From contig OX387191.1 in assembly GCA_947561395.2 (NCBI GenBank), forward strand, positions 39,015,439 to 39,079,438: DNA of 64,000 nucleotides, given 5' to 3'. The notes under the pieces were generated by a model. The model was not told where the DNA came from. It searched no databases and was given only the letters and a program-made list of their open reading frames with translations. Source of the DNA: Buxus sempervirens (taxonomy: Eukaryota > Streptophyta > Magnoliopsida > Buxales > Buxaceae). Position numbers and translations under genes: made by a program. This document shows positions 6,447 to 62,006 of the stretch, piece by piece. Within the stretch, counting starts at the first letter, position 1, and each line of letters starts with the position of its first letter.

Positions 6447-7659
6447 TGTCCTGTAACACCCCAAATCCGAGTCTTTTTTTTCTTTTTGACTTGGATCAAG
6501 GCATTAATTAGTGATACATAACAATCAGCTCAAAAGATGGAGAATAAAAGAACTAAGAGTTATCAGAGTGCTAGGAATATTAACTTATTCATTAGAATCT
6601 AAATCTTACTATTACATCAAATATTCAAATAAAAGACAAACTACAACTTAACTAACTCCCAAAACTCTACTGGACCACCTACTAATATTTTAGGAAAATA
6701 AAAACACCTACATCAATATGCTACTCTTGACTTCTGAATATTTTAGACTTCAAGCCCACTTCCAGACTACCCAAGGCGTCCTCTCCAAGACACCTGAAAA
6801 CAAAACATTTAAAAGCAAGAATGAGATATAAAATCTCAGCAAATAGCAACATGCATGGAAGAAAACAATTTATATATATACATATCATTTACAAACCTTT
6901 CATGAGTTGCAAAACAATATCACAAGTATCGCTAAAACAGGAAGACAAAGCTGTATAAATCAAATCTACAATTTTTCCCAAATTAATACAAATATTTTTT
7001 ACCAAAACAATTCATCATGCTAATCATGTCATTTTAATTTTTTTTTAAAACCGTTCTTGTCAAAACATGGCTAAACCAATCAATCAATCTCTTTCTTTTT
7101 AAAAGAAATCAAATCATTTATAATTAGTAATTAAAGCTCATCTTCAAGTAGTAGCCTACCTCTACCGCAGGATGTAAATACATAGTATTCACACTTCCTT
7201 CACAGGAGAATGCACATCTCTAGACCGCAGGCACCCCGCGCAGGAGATAGCATAACTCAACCGCAGAATGTGAACACATCACACCTACATCTCCCCTGCA
7301 GGAGATAGCTTCCTCATCTTCAAGTGGTAACTCACACGCCCATCTCCCATGTAGGATTCAATCATGTAGTAATCACATCTCCCCCACATGAGGAATCTCC
7401 CATGTAGGATGCAATCCCATTGGAACTACATCTCCCCCACAGGAGGTAACACGTCTCTCCCGCTGGAGGTAACACACACATCTCCCCTGTGGGATGCAAT
7501 CACATCATGATTACATCTCCTCCACAGGAGGTCTCTCACCTGCAGGATGCAATCCAATATGGACTACATCTTCCCCACATGAGGTAACATGTCTCTCCTA
7601 CAGGAGGTAACACACACATCTCCCTGTGGGATGCAATCACATCATGATTACATCTCCCC

Positions 7660-10191: not shown

Positions 10192-13072
10192 TCCCCCATA
10201 AGAGGTCTCTTCCCTGCAAGATGCAATCCAATATGGACTACATCTCCCCCATAAGAGGTAACACACACATCTCCCCTGTGGGATGCAATCACTTTATGAT
10301 TACATCGCCCCCAAAAGATGTCTCTCCCTTGCAGTATGCAATCCAATATGGACTACATCTTCCCCATAAGAGGTAACACATCTCTGCCACCAAGCAGGTA
10401 ATCAAAAATTTGGCCACTAAGCCATTGTACAAATAATCCACATTGCCATCCATGGCATATAAATCATTCCATGATACATGGAAGAGCATAAATCTACAAT
10501 CCAATTTCGTATATAAAGTAGTTTTTTCATATTTAATCGATAATCCAAAACCTCTTGCCAATACTTATTGTATTTCAAAACATAGGCTTAATGTACTCAA
10601 ATCCGTTATAAAAGTATTTTGATCCATTTTGGAACTTGAATCACATCTAAAACAATGTTTTACAGGTGTAGAAATCAACCAAATTGATTTAAACAAATTC
10701 TAGAACCAAAACTCTCTTTCAAGTCAAAACAAGACATATTTTAGTAGAACATACCCAAAACTTTGTATAATTTTTATAAAATTAATCGACCACTGAAAAC
10801 AACTCATAAACACCTAAATCTTATTTGTACATATGTTTTATTTGTCTAAAAATCAATTTATAATAAAAATCTAGGTATTTTCCCAAAATTAGAAAATTTG
10901 GGTTGGGCGCTCAAGCGGTCCTACCTAGCGACCTTTGAAATAAAACAGAACAATACGGAACAAAACAAACACTCAATAGAGTGCTCAAGCAATCATGTTG
11001 AGCGGTCGATAATATAAGTAATGCAAGTGAAACGCTTAACAAGGTCGCTCGAGCGACCTGTCACATGCTCACCCAATTGTGGCAAAACCTGAAAATCCGA
11101 TTTCTATAATTTTTTTCTTTTAATCATTTAAATCATAATTCCAACAATTCAAACCACTTCTAACACATCTAATATCATTTATAAATCATATTAAATCATT
11201 CTAAACAAATCAAAGCACAGATTTACTACAAATCTAAATCAAAATCTTAGAAATTCAACAATAGAAAACATACTTAACAAATTTCATAAACCCATCTAAG
11301 ATCATTCAAATCCACGAAATCTACTATATAAAATACATGGTTTGGTATCTCAAATCATCATATATTAATTCCAGATCAAACTCAAATGATTAAACCTAAA
11401 ATCATGCAACGATAAAACAAAACGGAGTGTTATTACTTGCCTCAAAACGCAAAATCCTTCTCTTCAAGTTACCGCTGAGATTCTGCTATTATCACACCGC
11501 TCTAGAAACCTCAGAACACCATCTCTAGTGTTCAGATTTAAGCTCCACCAGTCATGAACAAATGTAAAATCTTGAATTTTTTAATATAATAATAATATAA
11601 TAAAATAAATCTAAGTATTAAAGAATAAATTCAATAAGCCTAAACATATTGATAACTAAAGATTTAATTTAGGTATTGGAGGATTAACATTATAATCCAA
11701 AGATATATTTGTAATTAAATAAATAAATAATAGTAATTTTGAGTAATTAGGAATTTAAATAGTAAGTTCAATTAATTGGAAGAATAATTATGGATTTGAC
11801 TTTAGGAAGAGTTAAAGAGTAATTAATAGTAATATAAAGTAAAGGATTGATTAATAGGTAGAATAAATTAAATATGGATGTTTGGGGGAGATAGGTACTA
11901 ATCTAAGTGCATTTCATGGTTAAAAATTATATGAGGAATAAAGATGAGAATTTTGGAAAAGATCCAAAGGTTAGATATGGAATTGTAAAGAAAAGGGTAT
12001 TTTAGGCTTTTCATAATAGGCCAATTAATAAAGTAATTAATAGAATTGGAAATATTTAATTAGACTTAATTTGGGTTAAGTTTGAATTTAAATAGAAAAT
12101 TTATGGCTTAAAAGAAGGAAAAAGGGCTTATTGGTAATTATGATTTAATAGATGCCTTAAATTTGAGGATAAGAGGAGCATTGGGGTGTTTTAGTAATAT
12201 TTTAAAATAAGGAATTAAATTAACACAAAATCAAGTAAATTAGAAGTTCCTTATAAATTAGATTTCAGAGAAAGTGGAATTAGAATGAGGGGTAAGATAG
12301 GAAGGTTTCCAATTAGAATTGGGAATCCTAGTTAGAAGGTCTCCTAAACCTATTAGGACTTCTAATTAAGTGGGCCTATAAAAGGAAGGCATTAGGGAAG
12401 TTTTAGGGTTTCCATTAATTGAATCAAGAGGAGAAAAGAAGTGAGGAAATTCGTGCATAGGGCTGGAGAAAAATAGAAAGAGATATCGAGAGAAGAAAAA
12501 GGTCTTTTATGAAGGACTGCTGTAGAAATCCGACCAGTCATGTTCAAATTGAGATCTAGAAAGATCCGGCCGTTGGATTGGCCGCAAATTTGGAGGTTAT
12601 GTTTTTTACTCGTAGGACCTCCATCTGAACGGTGGAGATTTGATTTGGAGAAGTCTAAAGTGGTACGATTAAGCTCAGAAAATCGGTCGACATTCGGGTT
12701 TCTTGGGAGAATAACTTCATATATTAAGGCAAGTAGCAAACACTTTGAAAACTGGAGGAATTGCATGACTTCTGTATGATTTAGATGTTTTATCTTGGTT
12801 TGTTTTAATTCAAATCTTGGTTTGAAGAGTTGAGAATTTTCTAAGATGATTTTGTTTTTATATACTTTTAGAGAAATCAAGAAAAGTGTTGATCATAAGG
12901 GATTTAATTTACGTAGGAAATTCTATATTAAAATATGATTGAGGGGAAATGATTAGGGTTGTTTTAGAAGTGATTTAGAATAGATTTAAGATGATTAAAA
13001 ATAATTAAAATTATACAAAATCTTTTATAATTCGGAAAATAAAAAAAGCCCAGAAAATACACTGAAATTAGC

Positions 13073-14475: not shown

Positions 14476-17400
14476 CATTTATCTGGTTTAATCGCATACC
14501 TCATTACTTGTTTTATAAAATTATTGATTGTTTTATAGCATGCATATTGCTATTTGTTGAGATTTATATCTCACTCCAGTTTTCCCCATTTTTCAGGTAT
14601 TCTTGGAGAGTTCGACAACCTTGGGGTGAATGTGAAAGGGGTAGTATTTAGTTAGGACCCAAATATAAGCTGATATTGTAAATTAGTTCTTAGTTGATGT
14701 TCCCACTTGTAACTATTGTAAGTTTGTTAATGAATTAAAAAGTTCCTTAGCGTAAATTTATCTTCAACCTTTTTATGCTATGTACTTCATTGTCTTGTTA
14801 TCATTCAAGTAATGTCCTGATCCGTTTTAAAAAAAAAAAAAAACAACAACACTTGGATTTGGGGTGTTACAACAAAACCCCTAAATTTGAGGTCAATCCA
14901 ACAGTTGAATCTCCTTAGATCTCACTTTTATGAACGTTGGTTAGAAATTTCTGCAGCACCTTCTCTCTCTATATTCTCCAAACGTGAGAGCCCTCCTTTC
15001 TCCTCATTTTCCTTTATATGATTTGATTAAAAGAAACCCAAACTCGCCCTGAGAACCAAACCGCAAGTCTCCCTCACGTTGTATCAACTGAAAAACAAAA
15101 CAAAACAAAACACGGATGAAATACGAATATCCCAGTAGGTAACACTATGCATGAATAAACAGTTTATACATAAAAATAGTCATGCTTTCATGTTCGATAA
15201 AATATATGAGAAAACATGACACAATCTCAGAAAATAAAACAGTAATCAAATAAAAACATTTCAACAGATATAATCTTTCCCATCAACATGATTTTCAACA
15301 CAAAAGTGTAATAAGCAAAACCAAAACCAAACCATCATATGTCTTTGTAGGACTCATGAAGACAAGCAGGCCTTTAACAAGAAACTCTCTATTCACTATG
15401 CCACAATGCGACTTATGAGCGAAGCTAGTAAAATCCTTAAAACTGTATGAAAACTGAAACATGAGACCTAGACATCAACTTATTGCACACGAAACTCACA
15501 GAGTTCGGCACATACCACCCAAGCATGCAGCCCCTGAATCTGAACATGAGGATGGCCGCTAATCTGCACATACAGGGTACTCACTAGCAACTGGCATCTG
15601 AAATAAGATCCTATTGACATGAAGACCCCCCCAATTCAAACTAACTTGAAAAGGAAGCGTGAGCACAAACTAGGAGTATCCGACCAAAGAAAAACCTCTT
15701 CACACTCTAGCTTAACCTTATGGATCTATATTCAACTATGCCCACTAGATATGTAAAACCCCAGATTTAGTAAGAATTTAATTAACAGATTTACTGGTAG
15801 ACTTAATTAAATACTTGTGAATGGAGATTTCGGGCTATCGAATAACAAAGGGGAATTTGAATTTTTATTTAAACTTAAGTGGGTGAATACTAAATGGTAA
15901 TTAATAGTGATTAAAAATTTTAAACCGAATAAATAATATTATCCTTAACCTTAGGGGAGGGTAAATATGAGATTTCGAAGATTAAGTCAAGACGACAATA
16001 AATAAATTAGGTTAAGAGTGGAGTTCGGCGAAGGCTATAAATAGAATGCTAGGTTAAAATTTCGGATTGGAAGAAAAGAAACCAGAGGCCGAGCTTTGAT
16101 AATTGGAGGGCGAGAGGAAGGAGATATATCCCAAGGGTGTTATGTGGGGCCGAGCTCAGATCTAAGTTAGGTCTGGATGCTGTTATGGACCAGAGGGCAT
16201 TGGACGATAAGTTTTCTTTTCGGTGGCAACTACTAGAAAGATTAGAAGCTAGAAGAAATTCTCAATAAAACAAGTGAGTAGCATCGTTTTAATCTGTGTT
16301 TTGGGTTTTGATTTCTGGATTAGCCGAACTGCATGTTGTGGAAGAGTGTTAGTTTCAAAACATGGATTTTTCAATGAGATTTAGATTGGTGATATGAAGT
16401 ATGTTAGATTAATTTCGAATCATGTTTAAACGTCTTTTGGGGATGGTAGAAGCATAGGAAAATTGTTACATAGGTGTAAAATTTGGTCAGTCATGGAGTT
16501 TTGGAGTTAACAGAGAGTTGTAAAACGTAGGTTGGATCCGCCGAGCTACTGCCAACCTCCTTGCTTTCAGCGGCAGCTCAACGTGAGTTGTGTTTTGGTT
16601 CCGCCGAGTAGGTGCCGACCTTGCCCCAAGTGTCTGCGGTTAGCGCACCCACTAAATTCCTCAGAAAGGTGCATCTGACCAATCCAAGCCAAATTTTGAT
16701 ACTGTGAGGCTTCAACCTCTTAACCAAAGACTAAATTAGGATAATAGAAGTATCTTATCTACTCAAAAACATCCGAAGATCCTTTAGTCAAATTTATTGA
16801 TAATTTTATGAGTTCCTAGGTGATAATGGAGGGACTGTTAGTAGGTGATTTTGCTATTCCTGACACTACGAGTTAATGGATTAGTTTTTCTTATGTTCTA
16901 CATTGTTTTCCGATTGTGAAATTGTTTAAACTGGGTTTACTTGATTTTAAAGTGTTGAATTGTATTTTATAGAGTTTTCTTGGTGTGAGTAAAATGGTTT
17001 TACTACCAATGTATTTTGGTTGAAATATTACTGAGATGTCATGAGTATTGTTCTGGCCTGGAGTGACTTGTGATGAGTTGTATTGGGGTATGTGTAACAC
17101 CCCGGAACCGGGTTATGTAGAAAAACCATAACTCGTTCCCAAAGGGTTTCTTATATACACATGATCGCTATATCAGAGTGAAGGATAACATGAAATAAAC
17201 AATAATATAATCAGAGTTAACTAAAAATCCCCATTTCACCTGAAACAAGCATATACCCGCCTGTATCGTCCTCTCTGAAATCTGAAAACAAAACGAAACA
17301 AAAGGAATGAGATACGACTATCTCAGCAAGTAGCACATGCATGCTCAAATATATATTTAATTTAATTTCTAAAACATGCACGATTAAAACATACTTAACG

Positions 17401-17642
17401 ATTAACCACGGATAAATCGATTAATCCAACTAATTCGGCAAAACATTATCAAACCACAAAGTAAGGTGGGACTCATGAAATTGGACCACTTTGTAAGGTT
17501 AAGTTCTAGCTCCAAACAGTTTTAGTCCGAAATCCTCTACCAAACCTGATGCCACTGTCAAATCTGATATATCTGCAAAAACTTATTCCTCCGCGAAATT
17601 CTAATTCCAATATCGTCGTCTCTCAGTAGAAACACAAGACCT

Positions 17643-17860
17643 CACCCTCTCCAAGGGTGGAAATGGATAACCATCCAGTCTGAGAACCACTATCACACTG
17701 TCAAATCTGCTGCCAATAATTAGACCTCACCCCCTCATGGGGTGGAAACGGAGCTGCTACAGCACTTCCCTCATAGAAGGCCTCTTTATATGGAGGAAAT
17801 GCACCAGGTAATTTGATTTGCAGCACTTCCCTCATGGAAGGCCTTTCCATATAAAGGAAA
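17643..17860. repeat. Hairpin array in LTR Z
   Basis: CACCCT-CTCCA-AGGGTG (17643-17659), TGGAT-AACC-ATCCA (17664-17677), CACCCC-CTCAT-GGGGTG (17728-17744), CTTC...GAAG (17765-17779) and, in the following unit, CTTCC-CTCAT-GGAAG and CCTTT-CCATAT-AAAGG. Five-base CTCAT/CTCCA loops recur with different stems. Confidence 0.7.
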
Positions 17861-18063
17861 CGCATGAAGGAAGCTAGACTTTAACCAAACAAATTAGACA
17901 GACTTCACTTACTAGCTAAATTATGGATCCATAACGTGCTATGCCCTAAATAGCTTAAATAACTAAACCAACCAATAAAGCAATGACTTCGAATCAAACC
18001 AAGAAATAATCCGACATGCAAACCAACAAACAACCAAATGCGAGCAAACGTAATCGTGGCCAC

Positions 18064-21000
18064 TGTGAGACGTGGAAAAATCACCAGGATGATTCCCCCT
18101 CCGTCATCACACGGGCTCAACATAAAATGAGAGAGTCGCCACCATTCAGATCTTCGGGTGTGAATGGACACCAAAAGATTCAAAAATAATCAAAAAGAGC
18201 TAAAACGCAAATTCTAGAGTAAAAATAACTCTACTTGAAAATCAAATCCAGAGATGGGTAAGGGGATTAGATTATGAATGTGGGAAGGTGTTTGGCACCC
18301 TCATTCACCCACACAAGGTGGTTTCCAAGTGTTGTTCATGCTAAAAAATGAGAAAGCTTGCTAAACTCATCAAAAACCTTGAAAAAGGATAAAACAAATG
18401 TATGATATCTTCACATGAAAATCCAAATGAATTTCAGATCCTCTTTTATGTCAATATCACTTCTGGAATATCACCAATAGATGGAAATCAAAGCAAAAGT
18501 TGCACAAAACCAAGTTGAGTCAAATCCGGAAGATTCGGTAAAAGATAACGCCATTTGTCTTGAAATCATTTAAATCCAATTTAAATGGAGCCAAACCAAA
18601 TCCATTTGAAAGATTATGGTAAATGAGAGACTCATGCAAAATTCCAATTAAATCTGGTTGAAATCCTAGGAGTTGTATTTCTTTTAAAAGTGTTGTTGGA
18701 GGTAGTAAAAAGTGGCAAATGGGCAAGTTTGGAAAATTATCTAGAAAAATCGGCTCCATATAAATTCATGAAATTTGGTGGGAATGAAGTATGTATAGCC
18801 ATCTTTCAGATGAAACTAGCCTCATACAAAAATTCATTCGGATGTGTCTTGGGTGGTCTCCCGAACAGGCCCCGAAGATCACACATTTACCTAGAAAAGT
18901 GTTGTTGAACAGCTCTGAGTAAATCTGTTACCAACAACACAAATGGAGTCAAAAAATTATGAAATCAACTGGATTTGAAACTAGACTTCCAAAGGAAAAC
19001 TCAGAAATAAAAATCATTCGAATCGGACTTAAAACGAACACATGGCGCTCAGTCGAAGTGACAAGTTCTGTATTCAAACCTGAACTGACCTATCAACTTC
19101 GACAGAGAGATGTCAAAAATCCGCTTAATAGAAATTAATGAAATTTTACAGGCATAAACTAGACAGCCTCACCTTTCCCATAGCTCTAGAATCACTCCAA
19201 AATTCATCCGGACGATGAAGTTACGATTGTCCTAAGTTGGGGTACAGTTGCTGTCAAGTTAAGCCTTTTTTTTGAAGAAAATCAACTCAAACAGTGATAA
19301 AGTGTGTGGAATCCGTGCAAGATAAATCAAAACCATTTTGAAAAGATATTGAAGAACCTCTAGAAAGAAATTGGGCACAAGTTCGGCTCACCATCCTCTC
19401 CGATTGGAAAGGATATGCCAAAAACCCCAAAATTGAGCAAAAGTGCCCAAAATCGAGAGGTTAGACCTAGAGGCCTTCAAGATTTGAAATAAACTTGATT
19501 GAAATCGATAACGAACATTCCAGAATTGCTTGGGGCTATTTATTTTAGATCTACCACAATGACGCCAATAAATCCAAAATACAAGCCGAATCCGACAAAA
19601 CAAGTGCTATGTGTGTAAGTGTAAAAATCCATTCTTTAACAATATAATAACATATAGCATGCATTTAAATCAATCAAATGGGGTTCTAAAACAACCTAGG
19701 GTTCCGTTCCATTATCGTTTCCCTTAGTTCTCTCTCCCCGTTAAACACGGTTCTTCAAGATAATCTTGGGGTACTTTGAATATGAAACGGTTTTCATAGA
19801 ATCAAAAGGCTTATTCCAATCAAAGTTCTAGCACTAGGATCAACCACCAGTCTCGTTTCCCCTAGATCTCGCCTTCACGTTTTACGGCTAGGGGGAGTCT
19901 CGAGGTACTTTGAGTAGAGGAAGGGTTTTCACACACATAGAAGAGGCCTTATTCTACAAAAAGGTAGAAGAAGAGATCTAGATCTAGAATGTAAAAACAG
20001 AAAAATAAAGAGAGGTTTAAGGCTTACCTGGGCTTCTGGAAGCAAGATTGCAACGGTTCCCCTCTTCACTCGGAGCTCTTTGATCTCCAACTTCTTGGCA
20101 AAAGTTCTTGGCAAGAGTTAATGGCCATTTGCTTAAGGAGGAGCCTCCTATTTATAGGCAAAGGCTAGGGTTAGAGTTGGTGGGATGGTAGACGCAACAT
20201 AATGTCTAGAGCCCACCAACCTTAACCCTAAGGCTATTTCCGAGATTTCCACTCATTTAATGAAGGATATAATGGTAAAAAGTGAAAACTCTCGGAAAAC
20301 CCTAATTTTGAGCAAAAATCATGTATCCGACATATCAGGTCGGATACACAAGTGCCAATATGTATCCGACATATGATGTCGGATACATTAAGAGCCGCTT
20401 ATATCCGACATAAGTTGTCGGATATGAAGAAGTATGCTTGTATCCAACCTGAGTTGTCGGATACAAGGAAAAATGCCTATTTTCTCAAATTTTGTGCTGG
20501 TTTCAAAGGAAATAATGATTTTTGCCAATTATTTATCATCTTTATTGTGCAATTTGGGGTGTCTACAACTGCCCCTCTTTGCGGGAGTTGCGAAGCAATG
20601 AGCTGCAAAGATTAGACAACCCCAAATTGCACTCCCTTAACCATGATTTGCTTGGTTCAATTCAATTTTGTAAAATAATTTTTGGGTGAAGATTTGCCAA
20701 AAAGCCCTAACTTTAAGTGGGTATCTCTCCAAGAGGTCTTAAATTCCACTAGCTCTCGTGGCTATGAACTAGATTTTAAACCCAAAATAAGATTTTTGAA
20801 AACTGATTTTTTATCAAACCAAGTTAAAAATTGAGTGAATATTTTCCTTTTGACCAGCACATTTCTCCCAAGTTGTCCCAAATTCCACTGAGCTCTCGTG
20901 GCTGTGAAGTGGATTTTAAGCCAAAATAGGGTTTTTTGTGAAAATAGCAAATTTTGTAGCACACATTTTTTTTCCTTCTCAAACCCAATGCAAAGAATTG

Positions 21001-21069
21001 AAAATTCCAATAATATATTCCTCTCCTTCAAGATTTATCAAAAATCGTGCAATTTTGGGGTGTCTACAG
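18064..21069 (-). mobile_element. Tat-like LTR element remnant U
   Basis: The + strand runs from TGTGAGACGTGG to GGGGTGTCTACA and is flanked by GCCAC (18059-18063 and 21070-21074). On the minus strand a full LTR starts TGTAGACACCCC at 20570 and is preceded by the purine tract AAAGAGGGGCAGT. 20571-21069 ends in a second LTR-like start. It therefore looks like an internally reduced element rather than a simple solo LTR. A minus-strand CTATAAATAG-type TATA box lies at 20149-20159 and a GTAAG donor-like site near 20024. It is a fossil with no coding domain left. Confidence 0.75.
20323..20467. repeat. Four-hairpin array upstream of the U TATA box
   Basis: GTATCCGAC/GTCGGATAC (20323-20347), TGTATCCGACAT/ATGTCGGATACA (20361-20387, 12-bp perfect stem, 3-base loop), ATATCCGACA/TGTCGGATAT (20401-20425) and CTTGTATCC/GGATACAAG (20437-20467). 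The shared stem core is TATCCGAC; the loops differ. Confidence 0.88.
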
Positions 21070-23570
21070 CCACTCAGGACCAACTTACTCCCTCATGGAG
21101 TTTCCAAAATATTTCTCAAGTAAATCCCCAATACAAGTCAAAATGCAATATCACTTCAAACTTGAAATCCAATTTTTATTCAAAAACTGTTCAATCACTA
21201 AATAATCAAACTCAAGCCAAATCAAAATATTGTTCCAAGTATAGGAAGTCATTTTATAGTTAATCATATCAAATTCGGTTTCAAATAATCACTAGAATCA
21301 TTAAACAGTGAAATTTCCAAAAACAAAACTAAGTTAAATCTGAATATTTCTAGCAGCCAAATTTACTTGAAATCTATTCATCTGATCAACATAAATCAGC
21401 CTACGAAGCTTAACAAATTCCTAGTAAATCATATAGCAAGTCTAACAACCTTACATCAATTATCCTCTAAGATTTTCCCACTAATAGTATGAGTTTATTT
21501 TCAAATAATAAAAGTTAATATCTCACTAACAAAATAAAATTTCTCTATAACAATGTGGATAGTATAAAGTTAAGGAGACCAATAAAATAAATAAAATAAG
21601 TGCTAAAGTATCTTTCCCAAATCTAACATTATATAGATACCTTTTTGCCCCATAAATACAACATATCTTCAAAACCCCATATCTTGGTCATTTCTCACTC
21701 AAATGACACCAAACTTGACTCTTTAGATTCCAAATTGATTGAAATACATTATGCTATAACAGGTTTTGCAAATGCTTTACAGTTGAAAAATAGTGTTACT
21801 TTGAACTTACTCTTTAAGAAAAACAGTGCAGCCAAGCACCCATAAAAATTAAGTTCAAAATTAGTAAACAGAGAAATATTATTTCTTTTATATTTTTAGG
21901 CTAACATAGACTCAAAAACAAACAACTTTCATGAGAACACAGCTCCAAATTCGTCCTCTAAGTAAATGTAATAAATCGATTAATCCCAAAAATGCTTCAG
22001 AAAATTTGATAATGAAAGATTCTAACTCTTTTACATTTCTGAGTTTTCTTTCCTACACCATGCAATTCCAGGATAGGACCCCCACGAAATTAGCCCCTTA
22101 TCTGTTTCAAAACCTACAATTACCCATCACATATGCATGAACACCTTCTCCTTTAACCCTTGAACACCAACACCTTCCAAATTCTGCACTGTAACAGTAA
22201 ATCTGAATATTTAGTAAGTGCTACTTGCAACCTTTCAAGGACTGAACCATTTTCATTCTTCTAAACTACTTCTAACACCATATAAATCATCAATATAACA
22301 CAATTACACTGATTCGAATATAATTTAAACAAGTTAACTCTGCATCATAGATTAAATGCCCATTCATGAACATAAAACAGATTTTTATTTGTTTCAGATT
22401 CATCCATTTAGAAATTCGTCAAATCCACATGAAAACATGATGTTTAAAAGGATGCTACTTGCCTTATATTGCTGGAATTCAACTTCACCCAAATCAGCAA
22501 TGAGGATCAGGTATTCTCCACGCCCAAAGCTTCCCAACAGCTGCTGAAATTTTGCATAAAATTTTCAAAATTCAGATCTGATCCACTCGTCCAATTCTCT
22601 ACTAAAGCTTTGTTGGAAAATAACTCAGACTAACCTAAATCAAACACTGAGATTAGCTTACCTGATCTGGACTGAAAATTGGACAAGAATATAAGTAACC
22701 ACATCAGACGCCCTCCCTTCATGAACTAAGCTCCCTTCACAAAACCTTAATTCTTCAGATCTGTTTTGACTCACCCCCAATCTCTGCTACTCCAGTTTTC
22801 TCCAGCAACAAAAGGGAACTTCAAAAGCCCCTTTTCCAACAACAATTTGGAAGTTCAAGAACCAACTTCTCCAGCACTTCCCAAGCACTCCTTGAACTTT
22901 CCAAGCACCCCTTGGAATTCTAACTCTCTCTCTCCTTGGACAACTTCTCATGTGTTCAACTTTTCAGCTCCCTCTTCATGATCCCATATTGTGATCTCCA
23001 CCAAATTCCCTACACTAACATTCTATTAGACTTGATTCACTAATTTGCCACTCATCTATATATAACATCACCACTAAATAATTTCTAATAAAATTCCTAA
23101 CTAATATTTCTTGACCATTGAAATTATAATATAACCTCACTTAACCGAATTTACATAATCCCCTATTTTTTTTTCAAAGATTCCCAAATTGTCCTTGTGG
23201 CACTCCACCCTAAACCAATATATTAAAATATAATTATTGCTTCTTATTTTTATAATTAGAATTTCTACCCGGATTCACCCGAGAACTCCGGTTCGACCAC
23301 TTAATCTCTTTTTCTAGACTTTCCCATCAATTAAAACAATTAATACTCCCTAAAATCAAATTTTTAATATTATTAAAAATTCGGGATTTTACAGTATGCA
23401 TGATGGTGATCAGCGTTGGTTTATCGTTTTGCAAATGCTGAGTTTTATGAAATTGTTTATTTTGGTTTTGGTTTAGCTTCCCTTGGATCCATGCTTAAGC
23501 TTAGTAATGTGATGGTATTGTTTGTTGGTGTAATTCCATGGCCTTGTGTGTTGCCACGACCGGTGTAGAG

Positions 23571-23695
23571 CAACCAGAAACCCTGAGTAGGCCTGGTTGT
23601 CAATGCCGAAACCCGGGGAGTAGACCGGCATTGGATGACTAAACCCTAAGTAGGCCGTCATTTCAGAGTTCCGAAACCCTGAGTAAGCCGGAACT
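23571..23695 (+). repeat. Four-hairpin array with constant loop, LTR Y
   Basis: The stems are CAACCAG/CTGGTTG (23571-23577, 23593-23599), AATGCCG/CGGCATT (23602-23608, 23626-23632), ATGAC/GTCAT (23635-23639, 23657-23661) and AGTTCCG/CGGAACT (23667-23673, 23689-23695). The loops are near-copies of AAACCCTGAGTAGGC (15-17 bases). Confidence 0.9.
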
Positions 23696-24588
23696 GTGTA
23701 CATAGAGGTGTGGATGTCTCCTTGGCATGTTAATTAACCAATTTAAACAATAGTCATGACATTGACCATTCGATGTGTTATCGGTATTGTTATTGAATTG
23801 ATTGCAAACTATTATTGGTTTTGGATTTCAATTTGGAAATCGTCTTGGTTGCTTTAATCGTGCTTGCTATTTATCAGTGCATATTTATAACTGTTGTTAA
23901 CTATTTCTGCATGCATATGTTACTAGCTAAGATATTCGTATCTCATTCCGTTGTTTTCGTTTTGTTTTCAGATACTCTTGGAGAGCGATGCTTGCAGGTA
24001 GTTACTTGGCATGTGAGTTTATTCATTTGGGATTATTTTAGCACACTCTGTTTTATAAGTATTATTATATTCATGTTTTCCTTAACTCTGATATTGCGGT
24101 CCTGTGTTACATGCTAACCTCTGGAGTCGTGTTATGTTTTAACTACGTAACTCGGATCTGGGGCGTTACAAGATACCAACAATAGCAACTCACTCAAACC
24201 AATGTAGTTTAGTAATAGTGCCTAGTGGCATATAGGGTTTTCTGAAGCTTATAATCTTTCCAAAGATAACTCTGCAAAATAGTTCTGGTATGAAGTTCTT
24301 CTAATAAAGTTCAGAAATCAAGATACTTTAAAATATATTATACTGAGTAAGAATTTTTCAATTCACTCAAATCAGATTGTGAAATAGCCCAAAAATCCTT
24401 TTATTTCTAAAATAAGACAACCTTTTTGCAAACAAACCTAAATCACTCATCAAATTGTTTTTAATACAAAAGATCATTGAAAACAATTATAAACACTTAA
24501 TATCTATTGGTTTGGATATTTAATATCATTTAAAATCATTTTGTATTCAAATTTCTCTTCAAAATTCAGAAAAATCAGAATTCTAAGT

Positions 24589-24905
24589 TGGTCGCTCAAT
24601 CCAGTCGCTTAGGCGATCTGGTTGTGCGTCCACACGTTGAATAAATCAAAAAATCACATGGCCGCTCAACGTAGGCACTTAGGCGATCTAATAGGCGTCC
24701 TAAGTAAAATCAAGTTTTTGAACTGTCGCTCGACCCTGGCCGCTTAGGCGATCTAATAAGCGTCCTAAGTAAAATCAAGTTTTTGAACTATCACTCAACT
24801 CTGGTCGCTTAGGCGATCGGTTGGGCGACTATTTTGACTAAAATTACAGGCGAGCCGCTAGACAAGATCGCTCAGTCGATCGTGTCGAGCGCTCGAACAA
24901 TAGCG
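24589..24905. repeat. GC-rich short-palindrome cluster in LTR X
   Basis: About nine copies of GGTCGCTCAA, CGCTTAGGCGATC and similar units occur, several spaced by near-identical CCTAAGTAAAATCAAG linkers. Confidence 0.7.
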
Positions 24906-25818: not shown

Positions 25819-28065
25819 TGTAAAACCCCGATTTTTCTACATGATTTTATTAGAAAAATATAATTAATGAGCTGTTTGTATGTAGGAAATCTTGGTGGAC
25901 GAGCATGCACCAAATCCCAGGATTTCAAAAACTCGTCGAGCAGCAAGTATGTATGGTAAGTATAAATACTTAAGGTAGTTGCTTCGTAGGTTTCATTTTC
26001 ATACATTGAGAGGGAGGGAGATCACGGCTGTTTGTTTCTAGGGTTTTGGGAGAGGAGCCGACTTGTGGGTCTTCCTTGTCGTTAATAGAAGTTCCAAAGA
26101 TCGTCTTTGCGAAGAAAGTTCAGAGGGTCGACTGTTGGATTTGCGAACAGATGATCGATTGTGGGCTTCGCTGTTCAAGTAGTTTCTGTTGCAAGGATTT
26201 GAGCGTGCGAGAGGTGAGTAGCATCGTTTTAATCTGGGTTTTGGCTTTGATCATTGAGTTTAGTCGTAGTGCATAAGTTTCTGGAAAATACAGTTTCGAA
26301 CGTGAGTTTTCGGAAGGATTTTTAGAGATAGATTTTGATGTGTTTAAAATAATTTCGAAACTTGTTTAAACGTCCTTTAGGGATAGTAGAAGGTTAGGAA
26401 AATTGTTACAGAGATCAAATTTTTGGTCAGTCATGGAGATCTAGGGTTAGCAGAGAGTCGAAACTCATAGTGGATGTCCGTCGGGTTGGCGCCTACCTAG
26501 CGCCAACTAGTTTAGTCAGCGCGAGGGGTTGTTTTTAGTTCTCACTAAGCTCGCACTCATCTCTCACCGAATGTTTTAGTTAAACGCGAGATTGATTTTC
26601 CTTACCGCTAAGTTCGCGCCTATCTCTCGCCCAGTTTATTTTGAGTTAACGCGACGTGTATTTGTATAACCGAGTTATCGCCGACCTCGCGCCAAGCGCC
26701 AGAGGTCAGCGCAACCCCTAAGAATCAGCCGAAATGTGTTTTTGACCAAATTAAGCAAGAGTTTGATTAGTTGGAGGTTTCAATCACTTAGCCAATGACT
26801 TGTTTAGGATTTTAGAAATACTATTACCTGTTCAAATACCCTGAGATCATTAAGTGGAATTGTTGGTAATCCTTAGGAGTTTCCGAAGTAAATTTTAAGG
26901 GCTATTGGTAGGTTATGTTACTATTCCTAACACTAGGAGTTCATGATTTAGATCTCTCTTTTGTTATACACTTGTTCTTGATTGAGAAATTGTTTAATCT
27001 GTTTTACTTGATTTAAAGTTCTGAACTGTATTTGTAAAGTTTATCTTGGTGTGAGTAAATGGGTTTTATTACCAAAGGTCTTATGTTCTGGAATGGGAAT
27101 AATCACTGAAAGTACATGAGGTACTGTTTCTGGTCTGCAGTGACCTATGTTGAGCTGTGTTGTGTTGTGCATGATGATGAGTATTGTTGATTTAATATGA
27201 TGTCAGAGTTGAGTTTATACGATGGTTTTCTGTTTTGGTTTAGCTTGTCCTGGATCCATGCTTAAGCTTAGTAATTTGATGGTATTGTTGTGTTGTAATT
27301 GCATGGCCTTGTGTGTTGCCACGACCGGTGTAGAGCAGCCAGAAACCCTGAGTAGGCCTAGTTGTCAATGCCGAAACCCAGGGAGTAGGCCGGCATTGGA
27401 TGATGAAACCCTGAGTAGGCCGTCATTTCAGAGTTCCGAAACCCTGAGTAGGCCGGAACTGTGTACATGGAGGTGTTGAGTGTCTACTTGGCATGTTAAT
27501 TTATCAACTTAACAATAGTTATGACATTGACCATTCGAAATGTTGTCGGTATTGTTATTGAAATATGATTGGAAACTATTATGGGTTTTGGATTTAAACT
27601 TGGAAATTGTCTTGGTTGCTTTAATTGTACTGGTTATTTATCGATGCATAATTTGAACTGTCGTTAACTATTTTCTGCATGCATATGCTACTCGCTAAGA
27701 TATTCGTATCTCACTCTTTTGTTTTTGTTTTGTTTTCAGATACTCGAGGTGAGGCGACTACTAGGGTAGATCCGACTGAGACATATAGGGAGGAAGATTA
27801 CTATTACATTCCTTAGACCTGTAGGTTATTTTTGAATTGAACATTTGAATTAATTAAATTTTGGAAGTGTAATAAAGTAGTTCGAGGTTGAACCATTTGA
27901 TTTTAATTAAGTTGAATACTGAATTCTTAGATAAAATATAATTGTGCACTCTGATATGGTTTAGTTTAGGTTGTTATCCAGCGATCACAATTCTTTAAGA
28001 TCCTTACCTAACACTCCGTGAGACGTGTTATACCTTTATTCACAACACGGATTCGGGGCATTACA
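25819..28065 (+). mobile_element. Solo LTR i (Gypsy-type, Y family)
   Basis: It runs from TGTAAAACCCC to GGGGCATTACA with ACATC on both sides (25814-25818 and 28066-28070). It has TATAAATA at 25961-25968, a GTGAGT donor-like site at 26214, a GC-rich GCGCC cluster (26465-26705), a hairpin array (27337-27472), AGATA-TTCG-TATCT at 27698-27711 and TTTTCAG ending at 27739. There is no coding capacity. The open frame at 27222-27479 is the hairpin array read as codons. Confidence 0.9.
27337..27472 (+). repeat. Four-hairpin array with constant loop, solo LTR i
   Basis: This is the same layout as in LTR Y. AATGCCG/CGGCATT and AGTTCCG/CGGAACT are perfect 7-bp stems, ATGATG/CGTCAT pairs with one wobble, and the first stem (CAGCCAG with CTAGTTG) is partly decayed. 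The loops are variants of AAACCCTGAGTAGGC. Confidence 0.88.
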
Positions 28066-29039: not shown

Positions 29040-29649
29040 ACCATCCTTGAGATGATGGAATGCCTCAGACACAGAATTCAAACCCCTCTAATACACATTT
29101 CACTTACTAGCTATTCTATGGATCCATATAACTGCTAAGCCCACTCAACAGTGAGAAAACCAACCAAGGTAATGGCATACTTCTCAATAACACCCACCAA
29201 AATACAGAACCATATCTGTAACCAAATCTGCCCATGCGGAAAACAATAAATCAGGCACCAACCTTGTCACACTAGTGACCCAAAACCAAAACAGAATGTA
29301 CCAAGTCATATGTCCAAAACTTCAGGTTTCAACGGGCCAATATGTCCCGAATGTGTATCGACTCCATCGATGCACACAATACCTTCATATCACCCAAATA
29401 CAGGTGTATGAACTCACAAAACCAACCTTGGTTAAAAGTAAATTCTTTTGGAATAATAGAATCAAGTAAAAGTGCCTCTTTATAAACATCTACCCAAAAT
29501 CTTTATAAAATTGAATTTTAAACATCCACCAATGCAAACACTTCCCAAATACCCCAATCTTTATGTTAAATAGGTTAAAATTGAATAGAACCACTTCCTT
29601 AGTGAAAACTAGGTTGAAAAGTCAAGTTTTCCAAAATCTGATAGACTGG

Positions 29650-29810
29650 TCGCTCGAGCGGCCAAGGGCGCTCGATCGGCCTCACAGAATAGGTTAATTC
29701 AGGTTAGGTCGCTCGAGCGATTATTCTAGCGGTAGTTCAATCTGGGTAAAATTACTCTCGGGTTTCGACTATATACATATGGCGCTCGAGTGACTGCTCA
29801 GGCGGTCCGA
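29650..29810 (-). repeat. GC-rich short-palindrome cluster in solo LTR ii
   Basis: GGTCGCTCGAGCGGCC, GGCGCTCGATCGGCC, GGTCGCTCGAGCG and GGCGCTCGAG units lie within 160 bases. Confidence 0.75.
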
Positions 29811-41462: not shown

Positions 41463-41712
41463 GTTTGTCGAGCATTCAGCACGATCGCCTGAGCGACCTA
41501 GACAAGCGCCTCACTTGTGTTTTTTAAAAATACATAAGTATTGGTCACCCAACCGATCGCTTGAGTGATGGGCTGAGTGACCGTGAAAAATATGGATTTT
41601 AGGTAGGTCACCCAAGGGGGTCGCCTGGGCGCCCACCTGAGCGGCCGTTGATTTGGAAAACTTTGTTAAAAACGTTCTACTGCCCACCTGGGTCGCCTGA
41701 GCGATAGGGGTG
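41463..41712 (+). repeat. GC-rich short-palindrome cluster, 40815 LTR
   Basis: Repeated CGATCGCCTGAGCGACC, GTCGCCTGGGCGCCC and GTCGCCTGAGCGAT units in an otherwise AT-rich LTR. Confidence 0.7.
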
Positions 41713-43159
41713 AGTGATTAACAATAAATTCTGATTTTTCATAGATTGAATTTTTAAATGATTTTAAACATCTGAATCAACTTATTTTAGGTGTTTACAA
41801 CTGTTTTAAATGATCTTTTTTATTTAGAATAAATTGAAGAATAATTTAGGACTATTTTGAAATTGGGTTGTTTGACTTGAAAATAAAATGGGATTTTGGG
41901 TTATTTAGAAATTTGATTCGATTTGGTCAAAAATTCATACTTAAAAAATGTATTTTAAAGTATTATGATTTCTGAATATCACTAGAAAAACTTTACACCA
42001 GAAACTGTTTTAAAAAATTATATTTGGAAAGAATATGAGATTTTGAAAACCCTATATGCTACTAGGCATTTTTATTAAACTATGTTTGTTTGAGGTAATT
42101 GATATTGTTGGTGTCTAGTGGACATGGCTGCATATGGATCCATAAGGTTAAGCTTGAAAGTGGAGAGGTTTTTCTTTGTTTGGGTACTCCTAATTTACAC
42201 TTGCACTTCCTTTCCAAGTTAGTTTGCATTGGGGGGTCTTCATGTCTGTAGGGTCATTTCGAGCCTCGCTGGTGAGTCCTATATATGCGGATAAGCGGCA
42301 ATCTCCATGTATTGATTCAGGTGCTGCATGCTGGTCATACGTGCCCAACTTCGTAAGTTTCGTATACAATAAGTCGATGACTACGCCTCTTGTCTCAGTG
42401 ATATACAGGTTTGAGGGTCTTAGTAGCTTCGCTCATAAGGCACATGGTGGCATAGTGAATGGAGAATTTCTTTTCAAAGACCTGCTTGTCTTCATGAGTC
42501 CTACAATGTTGTATGATGGATTGTGATGGATTTGTTGTAATCCTAATTATTACACTATTGTGTTTAGAAATTTATGTTGATGGAAAAAATTATATTTGTT
42601 GAACTGTTTTGATTTAATTACTGTTTAATCTGATGAGATTGTATCGTATCCCGCTTATCTCGTTTATTTTTACCGAGCATGAAAGTAATTATCTTCTATA
42701 TATAAACTGTTTATTCATGCATGTTGTTACCTACTAAGATATTCGTATCTCATTCCTATTTGTTTTGTTTTGTTTTCAGCTGATACGTGTGAGAGAGACG
42801 TAGGGTTTTCTTCTGGGGGCAAGTTTGCTGATTTTCTTCCAGAGGACTACTATTATCCAGAGTAGTTAGGTTTTGATATTGTTTTGTTATTTGAGACATT
42901 GATTAGTTATTTGTTAATTTAAGAATTGATGTTTATAAGAGTGAGAGTGATAGAACCTATTTTACCATACTTGAGTTATATTTTGATGAGAAGGTTTGGA
43001 TGACTTTAATCCACGATTATTATCATTGGTTTTTTTTTATGATAAGACTTCCGCACTATGATTTTAATTGTTTAATGAATGATATTATTGGTCTGGTAAT
43101 TTGATTTTTTGGGCCCGTAGCACTTCGGATTCGGGTTGAGTGCCGGTTTTTGCATTAAC

Positions 43160-43405
43160 CCGGGTTGAGGTCCGTGCGTCTTGGGAAATTCAGCAAGTGT
43201 CAGTTTTGGTTGAGACAGATATCCTTCTTAGAACATATTATTTCATGTGAGGGTATATCTGTGGACCCTGAAAAAGTTAAGGCAGTAGCAGAGTGGTCTA
43301 AACCCACTACAGTTACAAAGGTCCGTAGTTTTCTTGGTATGGCTGGGTATTACAGACGTTTTATAGAGGGTTTTTCTCGTATTACTCCACCTTTGTCTAA
43401 TCCAG
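43160..43405 (+). pseudogene. Ty3/Gypsy reverse transcriptase remnant
   Basis: KFSKCQFWL, ISVDPEKV and VRSFLGMAGYYRRF are hallmark motifs of the C-terminal part of Ty3/Gypsy RT (thumb/connection). Only this piece is present. Confidence 0.88.
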
Positions 43406-46129
43406 GAGTAGCATCATCCTCGAGATGATGGACTGCCTATGACATAGAATAAGAAACTCCAGAAGACAATTCTAGTTACTAGCTATTCTATGGATCCATG
43501 TAAGAGCTAAGCCTGCTAGACACAACTCACAATCAAAAACTCTAAACAACTTAATAACATATCAGTCAATAATATAATAAAAAGCATACACCATGAGATA
43601 GCCGTAATAGTAGAGACACAATCGTGGCAGTAACACACCCGCAATAGCGGAATAAACAGTATGGCAATAGCCAAATCTCATCCGCAATAGCGGAATAAAT
43701 CAATAGAGGCAATAGCCTAATCTCATCCACAATGGCGAAATAAACAATAAAACTAAACCATAAAAGAATGGAGAATAAATCAAGACGTTAAATACACCCC
43801 AAGGTCAAGTTCTTTTAGGAAAACACCCCCCAAAACCGTGAATAAATCCTTTAATCAAATGTTACAATTGTTGATGTGCATGAGTCATTATTATTTAAGT
43901 TTTTGACATGTTTTAGTTCACATTCCTAAGCACTAACAATGTTTCCAATTCTTGTCTAAAACTTCCCTATTTCTATGATCTAATAATATCCAAATTTTCC
44001 CTCATTTAGAGCCTAAGATGTCAAAACTTAGTAACCCTGTTATTTAGTTCATCCAAAAGGTAACTTAGGTCTGTATTGAAAGTTAAGAATAGGTCAAGTT
44101 ACCCAAAATCAAATCTAAATTAGGTTGTGTCCTCTTTCTACTTAAAACATCTCCAAAATTTTCATCTTTACAATCATCGTCCCAAATTACTATCCTTTAA
44201 TCCCAATTTAATTCTACCACTTTCTACATCTCAAATTATCCTAATTACAGGTGTTACAACTTTAAAATTTCTAGAAAAATCAATTAAAATGGATTTGGGC
44301 TTGAATCTCAAAAATCTGGAAATTCTGACAAAGGCCACTTGACTAGGCACTCGAGCAGTCTATTAGGCAATCTCTACTGGGTAAATTTCTTCTTAAGCCG
44401 CTCACAATGACACTCAAGCGGTAATTCGGGCATTGGGTATCAAGTTAAATTTTAATTCTGTTTCAGAACACACAGGCAGGGCGCTTGCATTTGCACTCAA
44501 GCGGTCACTCGAGCGCTTGGCCAATTTCACTATTTTTCTGGGTTTTTTAGATTTCAGAAATTTCTCAAATTTCTATGGTTTTAAATTGTTTCTAAACATA
44601 AAAATTTCATTCTAAAATACTTCTAAGACAATCCTAACCTAATCTTAGTGACTAAAAATTTATCTACGTTTTTCTCACTAAATTTAATATCTTTTATTTA
44701 GCACTTTTCCAAATTCTTTAAAGAGAAAGTAAACAAACTCGATTTATAAATCCCCAAACATTTCAAAATGAAATCTGAATCAAATAAACCACGATTAATC
44801 ATCAAATTCAAACGAAAATCATGCAATCTCCAGTTTTCCAAAAAGGGTTTGCTACTTGCCTCATTATGTAAATTCTTTCTTCCAAAAATCTGATCGTACA
44901 TCGATTTTTTGAGCTTTATCGCACCCCTTTAAACTTCTCCAAATCCAATCTCCACCGTTCAGATTAAAGTTCTTCGAGTGTAGATCAAAACCATCAAGTT
45001 TAAAGCCGATCCAACGGTTGGATTGCTCTAGATCTCCATTCAAACAAGGCTAGTTGGCCATCTGCAACACTGCCCTTTCTTCATAAAACCCTCTTTTCTT
45101 TTCTCTATTCTTCCCCCTATTTTTCTCCAAGTCTAGGCACGATTTCCCTTCTCTTTTCCCCTCATTTTGGCTCATTTGAAAACCCTAAACTCCTCTAAAA
45201 CTTCCCCTTTTATATGCTCACTTAATAAGCAACCCTAATAGGTTATCCCCACTTCAATTTTTAAAACTTTTTCCTCCTTTACCCCTCTTCCTAATTATTT
45301 CCCTTAAACTTTCTCTTAAAAATTTCCTAATAAATTTCCGTGCTAGTTCTCATCCTAAATTTTAAATTTTAATTAAACACTTATTATCCTCCCATTTTAC
45401 TAAAATTAAGGATCCTAAATAGTATAATTACAATTAAGTTCTTATTCCTTCTTTTGGGTCTGTAGCACATCGGATTCGGGTTGATTGCCGGTTTTTATAT
45501 TGACCCGGGTTCAGGGCGTTACATCAAATCAAAGAGGAAATCACACCAAAATAATAATCAAAACTCATACAAGAAGAATCAAATCAAAAAAATCACATCA
45601 ATTAAGTTCTAGATTCTAAGGATCCATTCCATAGATCATTTTCCCTAGCCTGCTCTTCACATTTTACAGCTAAAAATAGGCTTAAGGTACTTTGATTTAG
45701 ACTTGGGGCTCACACACACTCAGGCTCTATCCTAAAGAAAGGTCCAAGATGAGAGAATGCTTAAAAGTTAGAGAGAGTGCTGGAAAATAACTAGAATTAT
45801 ACCTTGGATGAGCCTTGGAAGCCTTCAGAAGTTGAGAATGGATTTGGGTAAAGTCTTCCCTCCTCTAGCAAGAGCTCTTGATCTCAAAATTTCCAGCCCT
45901 TTGCATTGAGAAAAAGCCTTCTATTTATAGGCACAAGTAAGGGCAATACATGTCCAAGGGTAGGCTCAAAAATTATCTCTAGATCCTTCCAACTAAGGAT
46001 CAAAGTATGTTTTGGATAGAATTAGAAAGAATTTATATGGTATTTCAGCCAATCCATAGCCTTTAGAGAGAGGTAGAGATTGTTAATAAGCCACAAATCT
46101 CGGCCTTTTGCAAATTATCAAAATAGATG

Positions 46130-53280: not shown

Positions 53281-53575
53281 TACTGGTGATAATATATAAA
53301 ATTGACCGTAGATGTTGCAGATGCCGAAAATCAAAGATCACTGCAGATGAGATGAGGTGCTTACATAATCGCTCCCTTATGGGAAGACCAAGTGCATCCG
53401 CCGAACCCAAACACGTTAACCCTTAGGACACAACAGCCCAATCTCAACACTGTAACACCCAAATCAGATCAAGCAAGAGCAAGACCACGCCAGCACTACA
53501 CCCAAAAAAAAACCAAAGAATAGAACTAAGGTTCTTCAAGAAAAATAAGATAGAGGAAGAAGAGAGTTTTTATTA

Positions 53576-56500: not shown

Positions 56501-57178
56501 TGTCAGTTTTTCGTATGACAGTTGTGGTTTTTTCACAAATTGTAGATGTTCTTTGAATATAAATAAATTTTTTTGCAACAATTGAAATGACATAAGCGAT
56601 TACTCAGTTGTCCAAAATTTGTCTCAAATCGATTGCATGCAATTTGTCTATAACAGTTATTTCTCATGTTTCGATTAATGATGTGTCAATAACACATAGG
56701 CCTCTGATGATATGAACTCAGAATTTTGAATCGTGAATTAATAGATTAATCGTAAAAATATTGGTTAATCGAGGTGTTGTTATGATTATCCAGTAGTAAT
56801 TTTATGCAATGGCCGAAGTGGTTAATCGGCACATTTCGATTAGTCGAGTGTTAATCCTGCAATGAACTTCAGAAAAACAACCAACTGTAACTCTAATCGA
56901 CAAATTATCGAAGCACCTTAAAAATAGTGATTAATCGGGAAATAGATACGATTAATTGATACTAATTGAATGCCATGCGCCCAGTTGTTCATCGGCAATA
57001 TCCGATTAATCGACGGTTAATCCTGCAATTAGCCTCAGAAAAACAATACTCTGTGATTCTAATCGAGATTTTCTCGATTAATCTAAAAAAAAGTGTTTAA
57101 TCGGGAATTAGATACGATTAATCGGTCATCATTGAATGCAATGTGCCCAGTAGTTCATCGGCAAGGTTCGATTAATCG
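53576..57178 (+). repeat. Left arm of the foldback MULE
   Basis: It pairs base for base with 58245-61845. The differences I noticed are a G run of 14 against 12 (near 55946 and 59463) and one A/C change near 56567. The arm includes a direct repeat of about 137 bp (54707 and 54844 starts), a GC-rich block (53800-54080) followed by a GTAAG donor-like site, and the transposase fragment. Confidence 0.95.
55810..56264 (+). pseudogene. MULE transposase N-terminal (PB1-like) fragment, left arm
   Basis: The segment reads FHIDGEIVIEQEKSVSYLGG, then a glycine run and RLDGFNIS (shifted frame here because of the longer G run), then FVSDACNLFEISPVGLFMKYSL and LLPLTGTFFDCQEVAGRLE. This follows the N-terminal domain of plant MURA-type transposases: a G-F-V...Y-GG block, a D-x-D block, then F...V...F...IKYFLP...TLI.LSND.DL. 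There is one in-frame TAG between the two blocks. It encodes no catalytic domain. The match is to a remembered family pattern, so a profile search would be needed for certainty. Confidence 0.6.
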
Positions 57179-61200: not shown

Positions 61201-61845
61201 AATGCATCGATTCAGAGACTAAGGTTAGATTATCCATAACTAAACGAAATGTACCACATCATGGATGGAAACCTAACAAAAATGTAGACCAAAAAATTTT
61301 CATTCTAAAAAGCAAACAGATTAGGGACAATCGGTTCTTACCTTGAGGAGATTTGCTCACAACCTCTAACAAGGGAAATTTCTGGCTGAAGTGCTTCGTG
61401 AAGGCTCTCTACTGCCGTTTTCTTTTCCGACAGACAGAAGAAAATGGCACACTATAACCGCTTCCACCAGATCTCAAGCGCCGATGACCTCCTACAAACG
61501 AGAGACGAAAGAGATGACAATGTCGGTCAACCCCCCTCAATCGGAAGCGCCAGTGATGACAACGGTTGTCGCCCAACGCCGGGAACAAGCCTCGCCGTCG
61601 CTCTGGGTTCGTTGTATCACTCATGGTTTCGCACCTAATCGCTTTGCTAAAATGAGAAGATGAACCGATGGGTGTTTCAGTCGAACGAAGAAGGAAGGGC
61701 AAAATGGGGTCTTCGAAATATGCTACAGTGTTTTTGGACCACTTGGTAAATAGTTTTGAAAAGTTGCATGTTTCGGTAGGGAAGACTTTTCAACGTCTGT
61801 TTTTGTATTTACTTTTCAAAAGACGGTCACATTTGAAATTTTCCC
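58245..61845 (-). repeat. Right arm of the foldback MULE
   Basis: Inverted copy of 53576-57178, with the same content read on the minus strand. Confidence 0.95.
59159..59625 (-). pseudogene. MULE transposase N-terminal fragment, right arm
   Basis: This is the mirror copy of 55810-56264. Here the G run is 12, so the frame runs unbroken from SVSYLGG through RLDGFNISGNT up to the single TAG, after which FVSDACNLF follows in the same frame. It is the better preserved of the two copies. Confidence 0.6.
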
Positions 61846-62006
61846 TTTTTATTATGCATAGAACGAATACGGAGAGAGAGTTTTCTTGGGCGTTAAAATA
61901 CCCTAAAGCCAAAACCGTTTTGGCATTTATACGGGGCACGTTTGCAAGAAACGTATGCCCCGCTTGAAGGGAAAAAAAAATTTTCTTAAAATACTCCAAC
62001 ACTAAT

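Follow-up and report, generated by a model that had tools for sequence, protein, structure and literature searches.

A constant-loop, variable-stem hairpin array in two diverged LTRs as a candidate cis-acting RNA element

How can neighboring hairpins keep one loop while their stems change and still pair? A 64,000-nucleotide stretch of DNA (the window) raises this question within an LTR that we call Y, where a first-pass annotation had claimed four consecutive hairpins with differing, complementary stems. Direct reading confirmed all four (Table 1): in the inner 6+6 nt arms of the array 23 of the 24 positions are paired, and none of 200,000 letter shuffles was as good. The stem lengths first given hold for H1, H3 and H4, and that of H2 is 8 bp, one above the reported value. 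Likewise, the description of the loops as near-identical fits the three loops of 15 nt, which are 1-2 bases apart (with the T/C position of H3 placed in its arms for this count), but not H2, whose loop has 17 nt. Searching the window with the loop as a 16-mer at up to 3 mismatches returned 6 matches compared to 0.33 expected. When we scanned for neighboring hairpins with alike loops, the Y array accounted for 5 of the 19 pairs among the matches listed, compared to 0, 1, 1, 2 and 3 pairs in all in five Markov controls of the same length; by a stricter count of different stems, two of the five array pairs pass, compared to 0, 1, 1, 1 and 3 in the controls.

Two carrier LTRs and a second copy of the array

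Y and a second LTR, X, have a common start (TGTAAAACCCC) and a common end (GGGGYRTTACA), possess the TG...CA ends of LTRs, and are each flanked by short 5-bp target-site duplications, ACATC for X and AGATA for Y. Each looks like a solo LTR, and the window as a whole looks like nested LTR elements in plant-like DNA. X and Y can hardly be aligned outside one block: BLAST homology between them begins at the donor-like GTGAGTAGC and stops 14 nt beyond the acceptor-like TTTTGTTTTCAG, and the array sits within the predicted intron of ~1.5 kb in both. The array of X lies ~1.4 kb downstream of a TATA-like box, and a late AATAAA is present in X and absent from Y; the intron, promoter and poly(A) sites are consensus readings.

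Table 1. Window coordinates of the LTRs, their predicted signals and the hairpin arrays
Feature	Position	Strand	Description
LTR Y, 5' part	15752-17092	+	starts TGTAAAACCCC; target-site duplication AGATA at 15747-15751
LTR Y, 3' part	23399-24170	+	ends GGGGCGTTACA; AGATA again at 24171-24175
Element W, nested in LTR Y	17093-23393	-	target-site duplication GTATG at 17088-17092 and 23394-23398
LTR X	25819-28065	+	2247 bp; target-site duplication ACATC on both sides
Predicted intron of X	26214-27739	+	donor GTGAGTAGC, acceptor TTTTGTTTTCAG; consensus prediction
Predicted intron of Y	16274-23971	+	donor at 16274, acceptor end at 23971; interrupted by W
TATA-like box	X 25961-25968; Y 16036-16043	+	consensus match only
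AGATATTCGTATCT hairpin	X 27698-27711; Y 23930-23943	+	28 nt upstream of acceptor
Hairpin H1, LTR Y	23571-23599	+	stem CAACCAG/CTGGTTG, 15-nt loop; read directly
Hairpin H2, LTR Y	23601-23633	+	stem CAATGCCG/CGGCATTG, 8 bp, 17-nt loop
Hairpin H3, LTR Y	23635-23661	+	stem ATGAC/GTCAT, 5 bp; next inner pair T/C mismatch
Hairpin H4, LTR Y	23667-23695	+	stem AGTTCCG/CGGAACT
Second whole array, LTR X	27336-27460	+	hairpins at 27336-27364, 27366-27398, 27400-27426 and 27432-27460
Constant-loop array V2	43639-43738	-	loop YATT; stems TCGC, AGGC, CCGC, TGGC, CCGC with their partners
Array A7	7355-7654	-	compensated inner pairs; related copies at 10220-10359, minus strand; rows preselected for pairing

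We found no continuous ORF of at least 110 aa in X or Y and, in the window, no coding region belonging to either, no Gag, no primer-binding site and no full-length member of their family. The Met-tRNA primer site TGGTATCAGAGC, allowing up to 2 mismatches, has 2 matches in the window compared to 3.55 expected, neither of them adjoining X or Y. A Pfam scan of 10 of the 19 ORFs of at least 110 aa returned a copia-type reverse transcriptase piece and a gag-pre-integrase piece, both away from X and Y, and one further weak match under its cut-off. Past the acceptor, one frame stays open in X (27740-27815, reading TRGEATTRVDPTETYREEDYYYIP, then stop) and in a further unit, Z1 (42780-42860, reading DTCERDVGFSSGGKFADFLPEDYYYPE, then stop); both readings end in EDYYY plus two residues, and an LGE reading occurs close to the post-acceptor start in three more units (A7, V1 and Y). 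From these translations, a shared coding exon within the LTRs downstream of the acceptor is possible.

Seven units in the window have a common order of short hairpin, 23-31 nt and acceptor, some of them related to one another (X and Y; Z1 and Z2), and in five of the seven a recognized unit end follows 189-342 nt past the acceptor. The seven LTR-like units are at 6452(-), 14871(+), 15088(-), 17093(-), 24170(+), 28065(+) and 42779(+), and their pre-acceptor hairpin is of the type GAGAT..ATCTC or AGATANTCGTATCT. Other repeats were also seen: inside W, an array of long hairpins at 20300-20480 has constant arms (TGTATCCGACA...TGTCGGATACA) and changing centers, the reverse of the pattern in Y; GC-rich hairpin repeats of the TCGC..GCGA type at 24600-24900, 29630-29800 and 41500-41720 occupy the 5' part of the intron in units Z and one further stretch; and a 3.6-kb inverted repeat of 99.75% identity (53575-57178 and 58245-61846) surrounds a 199-bp tandem array. 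A fragment at 43216-43400, adjoining Z1, reads by eye like a Ty3-type reverse transcriptase.

The loop recurs at three further sites within 27343-27454 that, together with an H2-type hairpin, make up an array of four in X, a second in-order copy that was absent from the first-pass annotation. Compared to the Y array, it has four stem substitutions, otherwise identical stems, and the identical order. The stems must therefore have diverged from each other before the two LTRs parted, each stem having its own place. Differences between the two arrays fall on 4 of 56 stem sites and 4 of 62 loop sites, and none of the differing stem sites is part of a compensatory change; the resulting defects are a G-U and a C-A in H1 of X, a U-G in H3 of X, and the mismatch in H3 of Y. 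Stem arms that drift without compensatory pairs in other copies, which the first-pass annotation had named as evidence against its view, are thus partly seen, in a comparison that is weak because both copies have the appearance of solo LTRs that have decayed since insertion; the X/Y differences mostly measure this decay.

We compared this divergence with that of the surrounding sequence. X was divided into 50-base steps and each was scored for identity to Y. The five steps outside the homology block reach 16-48%; within the 5' intron, 14 of 20 steps reach 60-86% and the remaining six 0-52%. Identity peaks at 94-96% across the three steps containing most of the array, which is the best conserved part of the predicted intron, and is 84-88% beyond it. 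Differences number 8/125 in the array, 7/104 in its 5' flank, 33/275 in its 3' flank and 282/877 in the 5' intron. The array is therefore less diverged than the 5' intron (p 7e-11); compared to the 3' flank alone the lower divergence is not significant (p 0.11), and p is 0.047 once the 5' flank is added. Local recombination among LTR lineages could alternatively have produced this conservation profile.

That the array arose by chance, or is a neutral relic that never had a function, would agree with a modest folding energy on the plus strand (z -1.5 for Y and -1.4 for X, 126-nt pieces) and with changes that strike stems and loops alike, but not with pairing that no shuffle matched or with an order kept in two diverged LTRs; already disfavored on these grounds, this explanation is extremely unlikely.

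Covariation among the eight hairpins

The first-pass annotation had argued that arms which differ and yet remain complementary need either selection on pairing or a templated process, and it had proposed covariation of the stem arms as the test. We aligned the four X and four Y hairpins as eight paralogous rows with 7 stem pairs (56 cells). In this alignment 96.4% of the cells are paired and two-sided changes occur in six of the seven pairs; the covariation score is 0.867 compared to 0.238 for shuffled rows, a score that 0 of 500 shuffles reach and that slid partners do not approach (at most 0.189), figures that are not probabilities because the rows are related. Compensatory changes beyond controls, as expected of a structured RNA under selection, are thus found among the paralogous hairpins, and pairing and covariation together bear out the original argument. 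A covariance model of the eight hairpins, searched against the window, found the same eight, with the next best match at E 0.23.

Comparing hairpins pair by pair within each LTR gave 20 two-sided and 5 one-sided stem differences in 42 comparisons for Y, with pairing preserved in all 20 two-sided cases, and 20 two-sided and 6 one-sided differences for X, with both members pairing in 19 of the 20. In X, H1, H3 and H4 have one and the same loop sequence, with stems that are unlike at 5 to 6 of the 7 pairs. H2 and H4 have 5 of 7 stem pairs in common and differ by two compensated, non-adjacent pairs; H2 and H3 of Y have 4 of 7 in common and differ by one compensated pair and two one-sided changes. 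H2, H3 and H4 are plainly related, with H1 the most distant. With these shared pairs the hairpins look like diverged duplicates, which points to compensated change after duplication rather than abrupt rewriting; the contrast that had been drawn with ordinary tandem duplication is not supported.

Two further arrays in the window were scored in the same way. V2, whose rows are 5 of the 17 YATT sites of its region, picked since all four of their pairs form, has 100% of 16 cells paired and a score of 0.875 compared to 0.349, which 13 of 500 shuffles reach; its number of covarying pairs is matched by 178 of 500. In A7 and its related copies the outer stem is kept while inner pairs change from A-U to C-G, giving a score of 0.327 compared to 0.201 (1 of 500 shuffles) and a number of covarying pairs no better than shuffles (324 of 500). 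Both arrays lend weak support, because their rows were chosen for pairing and because shuffles reach their scores and covarying-pair counts.

Differing complementary stems could also come from template switching, in which fold-back copying during replication or reverse transcription rewrites both arms and leaves the loop untouched, with selection weak or absent; the process has been inferred for rRNA hairpins, where it can fix stems with the loop kept (PMC8794818). Consistent with this, most compensated swaps in our arrays lack a G-U route: such a route exists for 2 of 7 in X/Y (with the mismatched inner pair of H3 in Y given the G-C of X), 0 of 2 in V2 and 0 of 2 in A7. The combined 2/11 compares with 61.0% of instantaneous changes in rRNA (PMC8794818; p 0.005, or p 0.013 at 3/12 if one V2 change is counted as two-sided, and p 0.09 for the 2/7 of X/Y alone). 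This share does not decide the question, because saturation by long divergence likewise pushes it to about one third, near the observed value. Isolated changes, 94.7% of the rRNA cases, are uninformative on template switching (PMC8794818), and the H2/H4 swaps, at two non-adjacent pairs, do not have the enriched mark of many pairs changed at once. Furthermore, the process favors four-nt loops in rRNA (PMC8794818) compared to 15-17 nt in X and Y, and it leaves the constancy of the loop letters across duplications unexplained. We regard template switching as the main rival, a live but rather unlikely source of the stems. Because the hairpins of one array replicate each other internally, the array lends itself to testing this process.

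Strand, folding and possible use

On the LTR sense strand, stem pairs other than Watson-Crick are more often G-U than A-C, by 4 to 1 in X/Y, 2 to 0 in V2 and 18 to 1 in A7, in a tally whose rows are related and in which 8 of the 18 in A7 are a single pair that is U-G in every row. We counted this bias in favor of a sense-strand RNA. The antisense strand is lower in energy for each of the eight X/Y hairpins taken singly, which suggested the minus strand as the transcribed one; we did not adopt this, since X and Y both carry their TATA-like box, donor, T-rich tract and acceptor on the plus strand and since other units, in either orientation, repeat the order of hairpin and acceptor.

Free folding leaves the sense structure unsettled, because lengths and copies disagree on the four hairpins. 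At 126 nt the plus strand favors other pairings over four plain hairpins in both Y (-37.0 compared to -30.0) and X (-37.4 compared to -27.8), whereas at 141 nt Y folds into all four (-40.5) and X does not (-39.4). The minus strand of Y forms all four at 141 nt and at 126 nt (-45.5, z -2.6), and the 141-nt minus strand of X forms some of them only. In a folding-energy map, no window on the array was among the 70 strongest of 2130.

The lower antisense energies, together with two foldable strands and CpG at the inner stem ends of H2, H4 and the 3' arm of H3, would suit palindromes that act at the DNA level, as transcription-factor binding sites or silencing targets, and palindrome arrays are known from plant LTRs, including those of Sireviruses (PMC2829016, PMC10760457). 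A DNA-binding site, however, would keep the letters of its arms, and here the arms vary while the loop is kept; the X array also lies downstream, not upstream, of the TATA-like box, and the G-U bias favors sense-strand RNA. These data make a DNA-level role unlikely.

The array could instead be a source of small RNAs, either miRNA-like or as an siRNA hotspot. With 5-8 bp, its stems fall far short of what Dicer takes as a substrate. Although hairpin-rich LTR regions of maize yield an excess of small RNAs (PMC10760457), stems of this size make such a source very improbable.

Our preferred reading builds on what was observed: an array of four hairpins that recurs in order in a second LTR, covariation among the paralogues, and a position within a homology block running from donor-like to acceptor-like sequence. 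We tentatively favor, at somewhat less than even confidence, a cis-acting RNA element of the sense strand, formed by tandem duplication of one hairpin, in which the loop is selected and the stems are free as long as they pair. The data suggest that the element once benefited from the folded RNA. The donor-to-acceptor block is probably an intron and the sense transcript probably the acting molecule, and we infer a reader of the constant loop, a protein or another RNA, that is indifferent to stem sequence. On this model, one hairpin would have been duplicated in tandem, and selection would have kept the loop and its G-C closing pair while stem letters drifted with pairing as the sole demand; a loop-reading partner would leave just such a constant loop and closing pair, and a stem required merely to pair.

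Most likely, the array would label element RNA that has not been spliced, perhaps serving as a packaging or dimerization signal on an intron-retaining genomic RNA, with control of splicing a close second. Splicing of the likely intron would remove the array and so confine it to unspliced RNA, as would suit a mark for genomic RNA. Retroviral Psi is likewise placed after the splice donor, and the packaging and dimerization signals of retroviruses and Ty1 are leader hairpins that mark genomic RNA; X and Y differ in that no accompanying Gag, primer-binding site or full-length element of their family was found in the window. The partner would presumably be supplied in trans, because no coding region of X or Y was found in the window.

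A broader scheme, which we consider distinctly unlikely, would make this a general design of plant LTRs of this type: an intron within the LTR with arrays of hairpins in which one part stays constant and the rest may change if it still pairs, whose loops serve as an 'address' recruiting the machinery of an autonomous partner, and whose arms are rewritten as units by fold-back copying. If so, an unspliced, coding-free RNA with several copies of the address would recruit the packaging or splicing machinery of that partner, and fold-back copying in reverse transcription would give each lineage new stems with the address kept. There is, to our knowledge, no agreed account of how coding-free plant LTR elements are recognized and packaged in trans; a constant-loop, free-stem array in two diverged LTRs, within a likely intron, is a concrete candidate for a trans-packaging signal.

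Relation to known elements and RNAs

Sequence searches for relatives gave little. The 16-base loop matched 6 loci in IMG/VR and 21 in GTDB genomes, with a single match each, which we took as chance. Two double-loop patterns, the 17-base flank and one pre-acceptor hairpin pattern had no match in IMG/VR, and a second pre-acceptor hairpin pattern matched one locus, in a 109-kb viral contig; 27232-27753 had no match in PLSDB. Rfam gave 0 matches above the gathering score over the window and, at a lax threshold over 23200-24300, 2 matches under that score, neither on the array. Exact searches of the literature with six motifs found no occurrence, and among the matches listed no title or abstract start describes a constant-loop, variable-stem array in any LTR.

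Repeated motifs in Sirevirus LTRs were reportedly described by Bousios in 2016. A maize LTR study cites that work for Sirevirus LTR motifs and describes Ty3 elements as generally without an obvious peak of palindrome or hairpin structures (PMC10760457). Like X and Y, Sireviruses have palindromes that are clustered in plant LTRs and able to fold as hairpins (PMC2829016). The constant part of these arrays is the arms (a CGG-CCG core; CACCGGACNNNGTCCGGTG), located upstream of the TATA box (PMC2829016). In X and Y it is the loop that stays constant and the stems that change, and the array is found far downstream of the TATA-like box. The X/Y array therefore does not fit the Sirevirus motif of CGG-CCG core palindromes upstream of the TATA box.

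By their ends and build, X and Y look like the LTRs of Revolver and LARD, the latter regarded in Triticeae as solo LTRs (PMC2851119). In common with these, they have incomplete inverted ends (TGTAAAACCCC and TGTAAYGCCCC here, TGTgAcGCCC and TGTaAtGCCC in Revolver, a likeness judged by eye), an early TATA box, an exon-intron build, a late AATAAA (in X only), and a variable 5' part with a conserved 3' part (PMC2851119). We have not filed them as Revolver: that element has three exons, two introns and a 139-aa ORF (PMC2851119), compared to the one predicted intron recognized, and no continuous ORF of at least 110 aa, in X and Y, which also differ in their length of 2.1-2.25 kb. The accessible passages on Revolver mention hairpin loops for Superior and contain no constant-loop array (PMC2851119).

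A likeness in design comes from bacteria, in Csr/Rsm RNAs such as RsmZ, which, like X and Y, are series of stem-loops with one conserved loop motif, conserved closing pairs and several copies per RNA (PMC4005645). Unlike in X and Y, their loops are A(N)GGAX and their partner is CsrA/RsmE (PMC4005645), and we claim no shared descent. The first-pass statement that no element family is described with this pattern is therefore to be narrowed: constant-loop series are known from Csr/Rsm RNAs, and the palindromes of Sirevirus LTRs carry the reverse emphasis, with the arms as the constant part.
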